This document shows positions 10,066 to 39,411 of a stretch of 55,758 bases of DNA, piece by piece. How positions within the stretch are numbered: the stretch's first letter is position 1; every line of letters begins with the position of its first letter. The notes below the pieces were generated by a model, which was given only the letters and a program-made list of their open reading frames with translations, was not told the DNA's origin and ran no database searches. The position numbers and the translations under genes were made by a program. Source of the stretch: a virus; IMG/VR virus record IMGVR_UViG_3300021963_000156, positions 1 to 55,758 of that record. One strand, 5' to 3'.

Positions 10066-10451
10066 TTTAATACAAACATCGTTCTGTCTGCCTCACTTCT
10101 AAACCAAAATCGTCGATCATTCATATACCATCGAGCATTAGGTTCGGGTGCTTTATCTTTATCCCAGGCACTTCCGTTAGATCCAAATGTATCTAAACAC
10201 CATGTCTCCATACGCAGCCAACTACCGCCAACTGGCTCTACACAGTAATAACGGGAACCGTAGACTGTGCCTTCACTTAGTTTTAAGTCTTCTATAGGTC
10301 TGTCATTAATATCGTCCCATAATCGTTGAAAGGCTTGGCCACTGAAGGTGCTCTTGCCCATTTGGCGTCCTGTCATTTGAACAAGGCCTTTGCCTTTATA
10401 TCGTGTCATTTTATCTAACATATCTAGTTGCCATTGATGCATTATGCCCAC
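10056..10451 (-). CDS. F.LKW-family protein with extra N-terminal region (copy 5)
   Basis: 131 residues. The C-terminal third has ETWCLDTFG and ends RRFWFRSEADRTMFVLKWR. The N-terminal half (HQWQLDMLDKMTRYKGKG, then LVQMTGRQMGKSTFSGQ) is absent from other copies; it resembles the start of terminase large subunits, where GRQxGKST is a Walker A motif. It may thus be a fusion of a terminase-derived segment to the family tail. Confidence 0.65.
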   Translation of the reverse strand: MGIMHQWQLDMLDKMTRYKGKGLVQMTGRQMGKSTFSGQAFQRLWDDINDRPIEDLKLSEGTVYGSRYYCVEPVGGSWLRMETWCLDTFGSNGSAWDKDKAPEPNARWYMNDRRFWFRSEADRTMFVLKWR

Positions 10452-10651
10452 CTCAACGCAAATAGTGTAGCATCTTCGCTCTTACGAAAGTAGAAATAGG
10501 TTTTGTTGTGATGATACACAACATTCCATCGATTTTTAAATGTGCCTAGTTGTTTTCCTAACCAAATCTCTATGTCAGTTATAGAACTGTCGAACTCGGT
10601 TTCGAGGACCTTGACTTTATAAGGCCATAGTTCTTTTTTAAGTTCTCTCAT
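10442..10651 (-). CDS. F.LKW-family small protein (copy 6)
   Basis: 69 residues ending KTYFYFRKSEDATLFALRWA. The WC element is replaced (IEIWLGKQLG). Overlaps neighbours at both ends. Confidence 0.68.
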   Translation of the reverse strand: MRELKKELWPYKVKVLETEFDSSITDIEIWLGKQLGTFKNRWNVVYHHNKTYFYFRKSEDATLFALRWA

Positions 10652-10911
10652 TTCAATTTATTACCTTCCGCACTGCCCCATTTGAGCATGAACATTGTAG
10701 CATCACGTTCGTTTTCGAATTGAAAATACAAAGCATGTATATCCTGACATCTCCAAAGACCTAGACAATTCTCATCGCACCATTCCTTCATCTTAGGCAG
10801 AGTTACATAACCTAGGGTTTGAAAGTTTATGCGATGACTAAAGGTGGCACGAGATCTCGTTGCCAAGATCTCGTTCACACTACCAACCTTTAAACCTTTA
10901 CCTACTGCCAT
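10648..10911 (-). CDS. F.LKW-family small protein (copy 7)
   Basis: 87 residues with MKEWCDENCLGLW and the strongest family tail, YFQFENERDATMFMLKWG, followed by about ten residues (SAEGNKLK). The tail is almost identical in layout to copy 3. Confidence 0.7.
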   Translation of the reverse strand: MAVGKGLKVGSVNEILATRSRATFSHRINFQTLGYVTLPKMKEWCDENCLGLWRCQDIHALYFQFENERDATMFMLKWGSAEGNKLK

Positions 10912-11117
10912 ACTAAACTGAACATTAATGCATCTTTGGGATCAATGAAGAAGAAATGTGTATGTCCAAACATACTGTCAATACTCCATTTAGCATTCTC
11001 GGGATCTCTTGTAAATGCGTAGTAACCACCAGGGCCTAGTTTTTTTTCACACCAATCGAGCATAGCTCTTTGTTCGTGATATCGATCCTTGCCAAAACTG
11101 AATCTGATCAACTCCAT
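10902..11117 (-). CDS. F.LKW-family small protein (copy 8)
   Basis: 71 residues from the ATG at 11117 (overlaps the previous TGA). Contains AMLDWCEKKLGPGGYYAF and ends THFFFIDPKDALMFSLVWQ. The DPKDA.MF.L.W variant is the form commonly seen in small proteins of other T4-like phages, which suggests the family is phage-wide. Confidence 0.7.
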   Translation of the reverse strand: MELIRFSFGKDRYHEQRAMLDWCEKKLGPGGYYAFTRDPENAKWSIDSMFGHTHFFFIDPKDALMFSLVWQ

Positions 11118-11434
11118 GATCGGTGATCCTCGGCTACCCACTCGTTGCCATCGTACTCACCTATGTGCCAAGATACATCTCCAGGAATCTCTACGATTTT
11201 AAGATTAGCGTGAGTACCGTTGGCATTTATACCTAGTTCTTTGACGACTTTGATAAGGTAAGGATCGTCACGAGGAATATCTCGATCATGGAAATCTTTT
11301 TCAGTAAGTCCTGCTAACTTCATGTACTCATTTATGGCACGCTCACTTAGACCAAAGCCGCCATAACAGGTATTAATTACAACATGTCGTACCCCAGTCT
11401 TTAGGTCTTCTAAAAACTTTTGTGCGTCAGACAT
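11108..11434 (-). CDS. Conserved phage protein (INTCYGGFGLS type)
   Basis: 108 residues. It carries VVINTCYGGFGLSERAI, RDIPRDDPYLIKVVKELG and IVEIPGDVSWHIGEYDG, a pattern seen in a widespread family of tailed-phage proteins of unknown function. Length and motif order fit the family. It precedes the F.LKW array in the same operon. Confidence 0.75.
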   Translation of the reverse strand: MSDAQKFLEDLKTGVRHVVINTCYGGFGLSERAINEYMKLAGLTEKDFHDRDIPRDDPYLIKVVKELGINANGTHANLKIVEIPGDVSWHIGEYDGNEWVAEDHRSWS

Positions 11435-12608: not shown

Positions 12609-13163
12609 TTATTCGTCGTCGAGATCATCCTCTTCCCAAATCGGGCCTTTTTTATCATATGCTTGATAATAACCTTCGTTGGGTTTGAGTATTCGAAAAC
12701 TGTTTGGATACTTCAAAGCAGCAAAGGTAGCTTCTTCTTGTTTCAACAGATCACAGATGATAAAACTGCTGCCACAGCCGCCTTCAACATTCTTAAACGG
12801 ACTGTGTTTGAATTCATTGCCTGCTAGAGCTGTGTGAAACTTAGATCCCCAAGAGAATATGATACGAGTAATACCCAACTTTTGATTGCGTAATCGAATC
12901 TTATCAAATACTGTGAGATTGCTGATAGTAGCAGAGTTTTCTTCGTCAATGGTCAACAGACAATCTTTGACTTTGATACTGCCTTTGGTATGCGAGTTGT
13001 CTGGGGTTTCCTTGGTAGTCCAAGGTATCTCGCAGGTTACGTGATGTACGTAAAATGATTCCCCATGTGTTTTTAGGACCCACATAGGTATGGTTTGGTC
13101 CTCTAGGTGTTTTTTGTTAAAATGGAACACCACGTCCTTACAAGCGTATTCAATCTAGGCCAT
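12609..13163 (-). CDS. Protein with in-frame UAG at codon 3, read by the adjacent suppressor tRNA (proposed)
   Basis: The open frame from a GTG at 13133 continues upstream without a break to an ATG at 13163 that has a textbook ribosome binding site (AAGGAG, 7-nt spacing). Reading from it gives M-A-UAG-IEYACKDVVFHFNKK and on. The only in-frame stop is the UAG at 13155-13157. The gene encoding a tRNA with anticodon CTA (13200-13275) lies 37 nt upstream on the same strand. The simplest reading is that full-length translation (184 residues plus the amber residue) depends on that tRNA. Without it only a dipeptide forms, unless ribosomes restart at the tandem GTGs. The protein itself has no recognised domain; the acidic C terminus reads EEDDLDDE. 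Confidence 0.65.
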
Positions 13164-13199
13164 TTGGCTTCTCCTTAAAAATGTATTTAATAATATGTT

Positions 13200-13275
13200 T
13201 GGTGCGTCCGGTGGGAATCGAACCCACGCATCTGGAGTTTTAGAGGCTCCTGCTGTTCCACTTAGCTACAGACGC
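13200..13275 (-). tRNA. Amber-suppressor tRNA, anticodon CTA
   Basis: A full cloverleaf: acceptor GCGTCTG/CGGACGC, D stem GCT/AGC with GTGG in the loop, anticodon stem GGAG/CTCC with an unpaired C-A next to loop CTCTAAA, T stem GTGGG/CCCAC, discriminator A and encoded CCA. The central triplet of the loop is CTA, which reads UAG. It is 9 kb away from the tRNA array, directly after the SPFH gene and before a gene with an early in-frame UAG. The amino acid it carries cannot be told by eye. Confidence 0.8.
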
Positions 13276-13282
13276 TGACCTT

Positions 13283-14101
13283 TTATTTGCCAGTGTTTCC
13301 GTTAATACTAATCAACGGAGAAGAGTTTGAAGGGACCATCATCAAACTACCCTTTTTAGCAGCTTCGAGCATAGCCTGTGCTTTAGTTTCTTCAATTTGA
13401 AGTCTCTTAAATTCCAACGACTGTGCTGTATTGCCTGCTGCTAAGGCCACCATTCGGCGGCTTTCAGCTTCAGCAGTCTTAACTTCAACTTCCTTTTGCT
13501 TGAGTTCGTTTTTAGCACGGACAAGAGCATTAGCCGATTCTACAACTGAATCTGCTGGTACGACATTACGAATCAACACTTGGCTGATCATAATGGTGCC
13601 ATCGAGCTTTTCTTCGGCGAGATTGCGGGTGATTTCTTCCTGGATGTACTTTTCCATAGGCTCACGATTGTCTGCCATATCCAGTGCTTCGTACTTACGA
13701 GCGGCTTTGTAGACCGCGTTACGAGCATTCTGTACAACGTAGTTATACATTACATAAGTGTCACCTTTGAACTCTGCGTGGAATGCCTTGTTCTTGGTAG
13801 AATACAATTCTGCTACACTTTGTGGGTTGATGTTATAGACTACTACAGCATCAAAGTCTTTCATTGTGCTGTTGTCTTTGGCCACAGGCGTCATGTTCTC
13901 GAGGACCACGTTAACATCCTTGACTGGAAAAGTCAAGACATCACCGATAATAACTTGATTAAAAGATCCGGGCAATAGTTCGCCGGGTTTGACCTGCTTG
14001 TCGAAACCAACTCGCACACCGACCTCACCGGTTTCGATACGAGTACAGCCAGTAGCCAGAACAGCCGCGGCAAGAATAGAGAGAGTAAAAATACGTTTCA
14101 T
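13283..14101 (-). CDS. SPFH/prohibitin-like lipoprotein
   Basis: 272 residues. The N terminus MKRIFTLSILAAAVLATGC is a lipoprotein signal with Cys at 19. A band-7/SPFH-like domain follows (TGEVGVRVGFDKQV..., ending around residue 190). A long charged coiled coil follows (ALVRAKNELKQKEVEVKTAEAE...), as in prohibitins and HflK/HflC. Such proteins form membrane-bound rings that restrain FtsH. Prohibitin-like genes are known in some aquatic phages. The lipid anchor would place it in the envelope. It is cotranscribed with the suppressor tRNA 8 nt downstream. Confidence 0.8.
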   Translation of the reverse strand: MKRIFTLSILAAAVLATGCTRIETGEVGVRVGFDKQVKPGELLPGSFNQVIIGDVLTFPVKDVNVVLENMTPVAKDNSTMKDFDAVVVYNINPQSVAELYSTKNKAFHAEFKGDTYVMYNYVVQNARNAVYKAARKYEALDMADNREPMEKYIQEEITRNLAEEKLDGTIMISQVLIRNVVPADSVVESANALVRAKNELKQKEVEVKTAEAESRRMVALAAGNTAQSLEFKRLQIEETKAQAMLEAAKKGSLMMVPSNSSPLISINGNTGK

Positions 14102-38145: not shown

Positions 38146-39021
38146 ATGAGGATAGAAATACTTTTTGAAAATTCAAATTTGATTACGGTACAGTTGTTTG
38201 ATAATCCCAGCATACGAAAATGGTTTGAGTTTTCAAAAACCTTAGATTACAAATTTAAAAAATCATTCTTAAGAAGATCTGGTCGCATTGGAAACAATAA
38301 GAATCCCACCGAATGGAAAAATGTCGTACAGACATTTGAAAATTTAAAAAACATCGGATATAAAATACCATTTGAAATTTCTCCCGAGTTTAACTATGAT
38401 CAAAATGTCTTAAACCAGATACACAGATTTTTCACTTATAACTGTATGTGGTGGGAATTTCGTAATCATCGACCCAATCCGTTCGATCCTGATTTTTATC
38501 CGCCGCCCTTTATTAAAAAATTTAAAGATTGGTTAGCATTGATTGATCCTATCAATGATGCTGTACATAAGTTAGAAAATGTCGTACACCCAAACAAAAA
38601 TAAATTGCTGTTTGATATATTGCCTTTGGAATTTTTAGATTTTGAAACAGACACAAGTTCTTTGAACTTTCTAGAGTTTACCAAAGAAGATCAACAACAA
38701 AACTTTAACTTTATGAAGACCACTGGTTCAGTTGCTATATTAAATCAATCTATATTAGGTAAAAGTTTTTTACAATCGTTCTTTGACAACGACGATCCAA
38801 CAGCTCTTGACTGTACGGGAAGACTGGGTTCGTTTGGAGGTTTCTGTATTGATGTTAATGAAAATAGAAAAAAAATTTATCAGCATCCTGATTTTGTCAA
38901 ATGGCTAGAAAATTATAATATCGATACGCAGACTGTGCCTTACGAATTTGCCATTGGGCAAGTTGAGTTTAGCGGTCCGATATTAAACAATAGATTTGTA
39001 GCGATAAAATTTGTAGAATAA
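38146..39021 (+). CDS. Hypothetical late protein
   Basis: 291 residues from the ATG at 38146. An upstream in-frame ATG would place the TATAAATA box inside the coding sequence, so the shorter start is preferred. The sequence (MRIEILFENSNLITVQLFDN...) is aromatic and charged with no known domain. It is the leaderless type of late gene, converges with the tmRNA gene, and shares a terminator with it. Confidence 0.65.
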   Translation: MRIEILFENSNLITVQLFDNPSIRKWFEFSKTLDYKFKKSFLRRSGRIGNNKNPTEWKNVVQTFENLKNIGYKIPFEISPEFNYDQNVLNQIHRFFTYNCMWWEFRNHRPNPFDPDFYPPPFIKKFKDWLALIDPINDAVHKLENVVHPNKNKLLFDILPLEFLDFETDTSSLNFLEFTKEDQQQNFNFMKTTGSVAILNQSILGKSFLQSFFDNDDPTALDCTGRLGSFGGFCIDVNENRKKIYQHPDFVKWLENYNIDTQTVPYEFAIGQVEFSGPILNNRFVAIKFVE

Positions 39022-39043
39022 AAAACCCGCCGAAGCGGGTTTT
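39020..39043. terminator. Bidirectional terminator
   Basis: AAAACCCGC-TTCG-GCGGGTTTT with T runs on both strands. It ends the plus-strand gene and the tmRNA transcript from the other side. Confidence 0.9.
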
Positions 39044-39045
39044 GA

Positions 39046-39376
39046 GTTTCTGTTACGAGGTATGTCTTACCCTAAGCTGAGTTTAGGCAGCTAATGCGAA
39101 CTGTTCGTCGTTTGCGTTTACGTTTTTTGCTTCTTCGGCCGGGTTCCCCCAACCCTACGGTTTTCACATTACCGTGCTGTCCACTCTGTTACTCTTTGCC
39201 CTGTCGAAACCAATGTCAGGCCCATCATAAAAGGACTAGTGCGAATACTACGAGTACAACAACTACACCTATTGCTAAACTACCTAGGTTGTCATTCATA
39301 CTAATCTCCTTATGGTGGACCTGGCGGGAGTCGAACCCGCGTCCAGAACACTTTTCTCTTTGCTTCATACAGCAAT
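39046..39376 (-). ncRNA. ssrA: Circularly permuted two-piece tmRNA
   Basis: The acceptor piece comes first: the T arm GCGGG-TTCGACT-CCCGC and the 3' end CAGGTCC-A-CCA (39313-39323), after an ACAG/CTGT hairpin. The coding piece starts with GGGCCTGACATTGGTTTCGAC at 39223, whose first seven bases pair with CAGGTCC (one G-U) to rebuild the acceptor stem. The tag frame (39083-39115) is GCA AAC GAC GAA CAG TTC GCA TTA GCT GCC TAA, giving ANDEQFALAA. Gene order acceptor then coding is the permuted form. The tag resembles betaproteobacterial ones, a lineage in which permuted tmRNA is also known. Between the pieces is an 89-nt segment that carries a micropeptide ORF. Confidence 0.92.
39225..39299 (-). 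CDS. Membrane micropeptide inside the tmRNA intervening segment
   Basis: 24 residues: MNDNLGSLAIGVVV then VLVVFALVLL, a single hydrophobic segment. The ATG at 39299 follows an AAGGAG that begins one nt past the tmRNA CCA, and the TGA ends one nt before the first G of the coding piece. The ORF thus fills the intervening segment almost exactly. It is expressed only from the unprocessed or excised segment. No homologue is known to me. Confidence 0.65.
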   Translation of the reverse strand: MNDNLGSLAIGVVVVLVVFALVLL

Positions 39377-39382
39377 ACTGTT

Positions 39383-39411
39383 ATTTAACACTCTTCTATT
39401 GAGTTTGTCAA
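39383..39411 (-). promoter_or_regulatory. tmRNA promoter
   Basis: TTGACA (39406-39411), 17-bp spacer, TTAAAT (39383-39388, weak). The predicted start near 39376 gives an acceptor piece of about 64 nt. Confidence 0.6.

Follow-up and report, generated by a model that had tools for sequence, protein, structure and literature searches.

Why should a phage keep the gene of an amber-suppressor tRNA directly upstream of a gene whose third codon is an amber stop? The question is raised by one phage record of 55,758 bases from IMG/VR, the whole of which was analysed and is here called the window. On its minus strand an uncharacterised gene (gene X), which opens with ATG-GCC-UAG and then continues in frame, is preceded by a tRNA gene whose anticodon is CUA. 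We propose that gene X represents a class of suppressor-tRNA-gated genes, in which a phage tRNA would decode an early stop codon and act as a coherent feed-forward gate in phages using the standard code; from comparison of the sequences, we put the probability of this reading at roughly 88%. What can be observed in the genomes is the gate, its conservation, its linkage to the tRNA, its change of gene and the match between stop codon and anticodon.

Organization of the gated locus

The tRNA gene (positions 13200-13275, minus strand) was called by ARAGORN, whose label 'Pyl' is due solely to the CTA anticodon, and was recovered with the Rfam covariance model RF00005 at 57.8 bits, above the gathering threshold. 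It encodes its CCA end, carries the discriminator base A73 and has a C31:A39 mismatch in the anticodon stem. Both programs agree with the CUA anticodon proposed in the initial annotation, and this is indeed the only tRNA gene, on the minus strand or otherwise, outside an array of 23. A spacer of 36 nucleotides (nt; 13164-13199, minus strand), in which a search found no terminator, separates it from gene X, and the two genes probably share one transcript. A Shine-Dalgarno (SD) sequence, AAGGAG (13171-13176, minus strand), lies 7 nt 5' of the ATG (13161-13163, minus strand). The second codon is GCC, the third is the UAG (13155-13157, minus strand), and 181 further codons lead to a TAA at 12611-12609, so that gene X spans 12609-13163 (minus strand). 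The arrangement noted in the initial annotation is thus confirmed, with the spacing and the number of codons as measured here. When both strands of the window were scanned for an SD sequence, an ATG, one to four codons, any stop and an open reading frame (ORF) of at least 60 codons, this site alone was found; in first-order Markov shuffles of the window, no TAG site was followed by 150 or more codons.

Conservation of the early amber codon

The simplest alternative is that UAG is a mere in-frame stop upstream of a gene starting at the GTG at 13133 (13131-13133, minus strand) or later, the ATG-GCC-UAG being spurious. Standard ORF callers do choose this GTG, and GenBank starts are placed downstream of the stop in Pectobacterium phage CBB, Cronobacter phage GAP32, Xanthomonas phage XbC2, phage XacN1 and Acinetobacter phage ME3. 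The relatives of gene X point the other way. A first homologue search gave 80 relatives from viral contigs, 79 of them with UAG in frame at the same place and one (locus L079) with Met; further searches raised the family to 217 loci, and the fused form described below, used alone as query, retrieved 291 relatives. Removal of duplicates left 104 distinct gated sequences; when clustered by their N-terminal domain, they fall into 62 groups at 90% identity, 30 at 80% and 15 at 70%. The stop is UAG in all 104 (no UAA, no UGA), whereas the window's ordinary upstream stops are of mixed type. An SD sequence is placed at the ATG in 97 of them, and 71 have exactly ATG-codon-UAG. Being common to independent contigs and cultured phages, the UAG is real and not a sequencing error.

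The codon preceding UAG varies, and those following it are conserved as protein with frequent synonymous changes: among 53 window-type sequences Glu2 is invariant (GAA or GAG) and Cys5 is found in 52. Judged by this pattern, selection acts at the protein level on the codons that immediately follow UAG. The codon used by the ORF caller is GTG in just 7 of the 53. Because the stretch from UAG to GTG is conserved as protein and the GTG is not, reading of the protein appears to begin ahead of the GTG and to pass through the UAG. The GTG start was therefore rejected, in line with the earlier expectation that homologues would not begin there. Together with the confinement of UGA gates to phages with UCA tRNAs (see below), this makes a downstream start very improbable. 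In gene X, an ATG behind an SD sequence is thus followed by a stop no more than 14 codons away, and the conserved coding sequence begins immediately behind that stop, with no ATG in between. It had been suggested that homologues would reveal which residue belongs at codon 3. This hope was not borne out: the UAG position aligns with no conserved residue, its distance from the ATG varies, and L079 begins with Met there.

The protein consists of a highly conserved N-terminal domain (12930-13154, minus strand), with the motif FHFNK..PMW..HV..PW[ST]TKETPDN..TKG and a predicted beta-rich fold (predicted local distance difference test score, 89), and a variable C-terminal part (12609-12929, minus strand) with weak structural resemblance to RRM/ferredoxin-like folds. 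Searches of the PDB with models of the whole protein and of the N-terminal domain gave no significant match; the best BFVD match of the gene X model was an uncharacterised phage protein, 58% identical. No match and no family were found in Pfam, PHROG, NCBIfam, PADLOC or the PDB sequences, and a search for bacterial homologues found none. Short members of the family lack the variable part; one of them, in the cultured phage RHph_I1_18, opens with ATG AGT GAG TTC ATG TAG, has a tRNA-CUA directly downstream and is omitted from the annotation.

Linkage to the suppressor tRNA

A cognate suppressor tRNA (CUA for UAG, UCA for UGA) is encoded in the same record as the gated gene in the window and in most of the large records tested. 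We examined 79 gene X pairs of tRNA and gated ORF and 20 pairs in which the ORF is a PTH2-like gene, the second gated gene described below. The tRNA and the ORF share a strand in all 99 pairs, with the tRNA upstream in 92, at a median distance of 560 nt for gene X and 167 nt for PTH2. These figures support the gene-specific, cis-linked arrangement suggested previously. Linkage is common; that it should be obligatory is contradicted by phage Atu_ph07, in which suppressor tRNA and gate are about 230 kilobases (kb) apart. A search begun from the CUA-tRNA pattern alone led to nearby early-UAG ORFs that were mostly gene X or PTH2, and its TAA and TGA controls gave neither gene.

The CUA tRNAs also differ in the anticodon stem from other tRNAs of the same set. 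The 31:39 pair is open in 43% of 189 CUA tRNAs and in 3% of 1087 others, and the 27:43 pair in 34% and 14%, respectively; anticodon stems of 4 base pairs have been linked to stop readthrough (PMC13092985). Most of the ordinary tRNAs nearest to the CUA tRNAs are specific for Lys or Arg(UCU), and A73 is the predominant discriminator. On the strength of A73, U35 and these nearest tRNAs, our best guess for the residue inserted at UAG would be lysine, or perhaps glutamine where the tRNA has G73. A pyrrolysine system was rejected, as PylS was found in 0 of 13 records.

A second gated gene

Several records combine a CUA tRNA with an ungated gene X. By scanning for stops followed by conserved protein and by inspecting the neighbourhoods of tRNA-CUA, we found that several of these carry a gated PTH2-like gene (PF01981, E 3e-8) 55-240 nt downstream of the tRNA, and in most apparent exceptions of gene X that could be followed the gate sits on PTH2. 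From these genomes it seems that PTH2 is usually gated where gene X no longer is. The fused-type gene X of Atu_ph07 and its relatives is ungated, and the adjacent PTH2 carries the gate. The gene-specific gate proposed earlier thus extends beyond gene X, as PTH2-like genes are gated too, with UGA/UCA replacing UAG/CUA in some phages.

UAG-gated PTH2-like genes occur in cultured jumbo phages, namely Serratia phage BF (ATG ACG CAC TAG), CBB, GAP32, ME3, XbC2, SNUABM_19 (Erwinia) and Kaldavass, in the three huge phages LR756500, LR756501 and LR756511, and in the cultured phages Arash (Salmonella, ATG CTG TAG) and Phosso (Sinorhizobium, ATG AAG TAT TAG). In XacN1 (ORF364) and Stenotrophomonas phage RAS14, both likewise cultured, an HD-like domain precedes PTH2 in a single fused gene, which opens with ATG, one codon and UAG. 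CUA tRNAs are present in the records of these phages. Both gene X and PTH2 are gated in L438 and G038. In L352 an HD-like gene (ATG ACG TAG) is gated along with PTH2; it may represent a third gated family, and a homologous domain is the one fused to PTH2 in XacN1 and RAS14. Locus L380 contains a possible further gated gene (ATG ATG AGC GAG CTG TAG and 159 codons without an assignment), 16 nt from a tRNA-CUA. At locus L318 (LR756501, a phage of 735 kb) the early UAG of PTH2 is followed by a second in-frame UAG about 33 codons on, and a pair of CUA tRNA genes is located some 2 kb downstream.

The PF01981 cut-off is exceeded by the proteins of L294, L290, Phosso and XacN1; the BF protein stays below it (17.2 vs 23). 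The Gly-Lys motif conserved in the catalytic site of PTH2 is present in the alpha-type proteins (Atu_ph07, Phosso) and absent from the enterobacterial and G011/G014 types. Because many gated PTH2-like proteins lack it, their enzymatic activity is uncertain. Canonical, ungated PTH2 paralogues exist in some of the phages with gated PTH2-like genes.

Agreement of stop codon and anticodon

PTH2 carries a UGA gate in Atu_ph07 (ATG ATT GGC GAA CAC TTT TGA), G003 and G004, all of which encode UCA suppressors, with no CUA tRNA seen. The gate is UAG in Phosso, L148, L146 and L143; two of these records have tRNAs, both CUA, and the short contigs of L146 and L143 have none. No wrong-suppressor case was found among the gated records examined. 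Ungated PTH2 and no visible suppressor go together in SCTP-2, phiCbK, LR756508, Munch, Hallingskeid and K64-1. The association of gated PTH2 with a suppressor gave p = 6e-4 in Fisher's test, and 3e-3 once close relatives had been merged (Alice, Myrna and phiM12, discussed below, being counted as ungated with suppressor), and since the counts share ancestry these values are optimistic. The pattern suggests that stop codon and anticodon were exchanged in concert.

It also bears on termination-reinitiation, in which ATG-N-UAG would be read as a minigene, translation would restart at the next codon, often AUU, and the tRNA would be incidental. In its favour, 46 of the 53 window-type sequences of gene X have AUU directly after UAG, this codon serves, if rarely, as a natural start (infC), and two-codon minigenes are known in lambda. 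The codons after the stop in PTH2 are, against this, AAT, ACT, GTT, CAA and others, and reinitiation has no need for UAG specifically, for UGA only in company with UCA tRNAs, or for a linked suppressor. We regard it as hardly less improbable than a downstream start.

UAG might instead be a sense codon throughout these genomes, as in the code 15 of Crassvirales, with the gate one instance of many. Recoded phages typically carry CUA tRNAs (PMC11210395), and UAG is rare as a terminator in the phages considered here (1-8%). It does still terminate genes, including about 6% of the window ORFs of at least 100 amino acids, as the initial annotation had recognized in arguing against genome-wide recoding. 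When eight records were scanned for stops with conserved protein behind them, gene X was the sole case common to at least four phages, with PTH2 as the second gated gene; conserved in-frame UAG was confined to these two. Genome-wide recoding was rejected on both grounds and has very little probability left. The other TAA, TGA and TAG cases in the scan were mostly conserved only between the window and its close relative G030; most of them are antisense and were set aside.

Proposed mechanism

In our model the ribosome would start at the ATG behind the SD sequence and reach UAG at codon 3. In the absence of the phage tRNA, release factor 1 (RF1) would stop translation after a dipeptide and the protein would not be made. 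Once present, tRNA-CUA would be charged by a host synthetase, vie with RF1 and insert an amino acid at UAG, yielding the 184-residue gene X protein. With the stop so near the start there is no truncated product, consistent with a switch rather than with a gene making two products. Since transcription usually passes through the tRNA before reaching its target, the circuit would be a coherent feed-forward gate, preventing leakage early or outside infection and permitting expression after the suppressor has accumulated. The same gate would be applied to the PTH2-like gene and would have been rebuilt with UGA and a UCA tRNA in some phages. Charging, decoding and timing are inferred here; an action of the gated proteins on translation is inferred as well, because only the PTH2 fold points there, namely toward translation quality control.

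Decoding may be real and its benefit lie elsewhere than in timing, i.e. in exclusivity (no protein without the phage tRNA) or in addiction (the gated gene retains the tRNA locus). The tight linkage of tRNA and gate is compatible with this, as is the persistence of the gate over two genes and two stop types, much like a self-maintaining module; the distant tRNA of Atu_ph07 is poorly suited to linkage-based addiction. We consider this possible, if less than probable. Equally tentative is a homeostatic circuit, in which the early stop would sense the balance of release factor and suppressor, and the PTH2-like, gene X and HD-domain proteins would feed back on peptidyl-tRNA or tRNA pools; several lineages would then run a closed loop with swappable stop and gated gene.

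Several observations weigh against suppressor gating; many of the records are incomplete. The record of L079 (G001) has a CUA tRNA and a gene X with Met as its first residue, and its 24.7 kb yielded no gated gene; conversely, G034 and G048 (incomplete records) have a gated gene X and no CUA tRNA was found in them. A few other members of the family, e.g. L354, L398 and L431, have ordinary ATG starts. The divergent mycobacteriophages Alice and Myrna (records L544 and L545, respectively) carry CUA tRNAs 130-250 nt downstream of a PTH2 gene opening with ATG/GTG-UAG-GTG; the SD spacing favours the last GTG, and these genes were not counted as gated. For the CUA tRNA of phage Summit no target was found in either half of the genome. 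Sinorhizobium phage phiM12 (L554) has an ochre-suppressor tRNA (anticodon UUA, record position 106714) together with an ungated PTH2, and no UAA-gated gene was found within 1.5 kb of this tRNA.

Neighbouring features

In the window, a gene for a Band 7/SPFH lipoprotein (13283-14101, minus strand) stops 7 nt upstream of tRNA-CUA, and a Band 7 gene lies about 2.3 kb from the suppressor tRNA of Summit. Tandem small paralogues with the pattern WC...YF.F....DA..F.L.W are encoded at 10442-11141 (minus strand); Atu_ph07 and Phosso have this pattern next to PTH2, and the C-terminal part of gene X may contain it too. A permuted (beta-type) transfer-messenger RNA gene is located at 38992-39405 (minus strand). 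At the related loci L002 and L004-L018 a permuted gene of this type lies at most about 300 nt downstream of gene X.

Comparison with known systems

Orphan CUA or UCA suppressors have been described in standard-code phages, i.e. XacN1 (PMC5852040), Atu_ph07 (PMC6102473), Summit (PMC9022506) and RsoM2USA (PMC8504454). The targets of the two CUA tRNAs of XacN1 could not be identified (PMC5852040), no specific target was named for the UCA tRNA of Atu_ph07 (PMC6102473), and the authors describing Summit could identify none (PMC9022506). Here, XacN1 (ORF364) and Atu_ph07 (PTH2) gain a candidate target, and phage suppressor tRNAs of this kind a candidate job with a concrete target class that includes cultured phages. 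A systematic annotation error is exposed as well, since gated genes are missing or started too late in GenBank (KU574722, JN882285, OP292654, KU935715, AP018399, OQ632216, MF403008, PV764938, KY630187, MW879342 and MN988519). Gene X itself is a large uncharacterised phage family concealed by its own stop codon.

In code 15 crAss-like and Lak phages a phage CUA tRNA likewise reads UAG as sense in a standard-code host, and regulation of phage genes has been proposed for such recoding (PMC9523058, PMC11210395, PMC10879173). There, however, UAG is reassigned in many genes, whereas here it is kept as a stop genome-wide, and sense UAG or UGA is confined to the first ~14 codons of one or two genes. 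As in pyrrolysine and selenocysteine recoding, a dedicated tRNA would read a stop in specific genes, but no PylS was found in the 13 records searched, the residue position is not conserved and the stop lies at the gene start, not at an active site. Lambda bar-type two-codon minigenes also consist of ATG, a codon and a stop, and involve peptidyl-tRNA hydrolase (Pth); in the genes studied here, unlike in these, the reading frame goes on beyond the stop to encode a conserved protein.

The system described is a kind of suppressor-tRNA recoding in phages whose apparently new function, the gating of single genes, we have not seen described: the open-access literature, to which our search was limited (i.e. 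without subscription papers and preprints), yielded no account of suppressor-gated phage genes. Its closest counterpart is a synthetic 'leak dampener' feed-forward loop, in which a suppressor tRNA and stop codons in the target likewise ensure tight expression; one application has the stop right after the initiator Met, and amber and opal both work (PMC7969014). That loop was engineered, whereas the present one is apparently natural, with tRNA and target usually adjacent. This suggests that nature uses a nonsense-suppression gate like the one built by synthetic biologists, and that, in many large bacterial viruses, the gated proteins should be made only where the phage's own tRNA is present.
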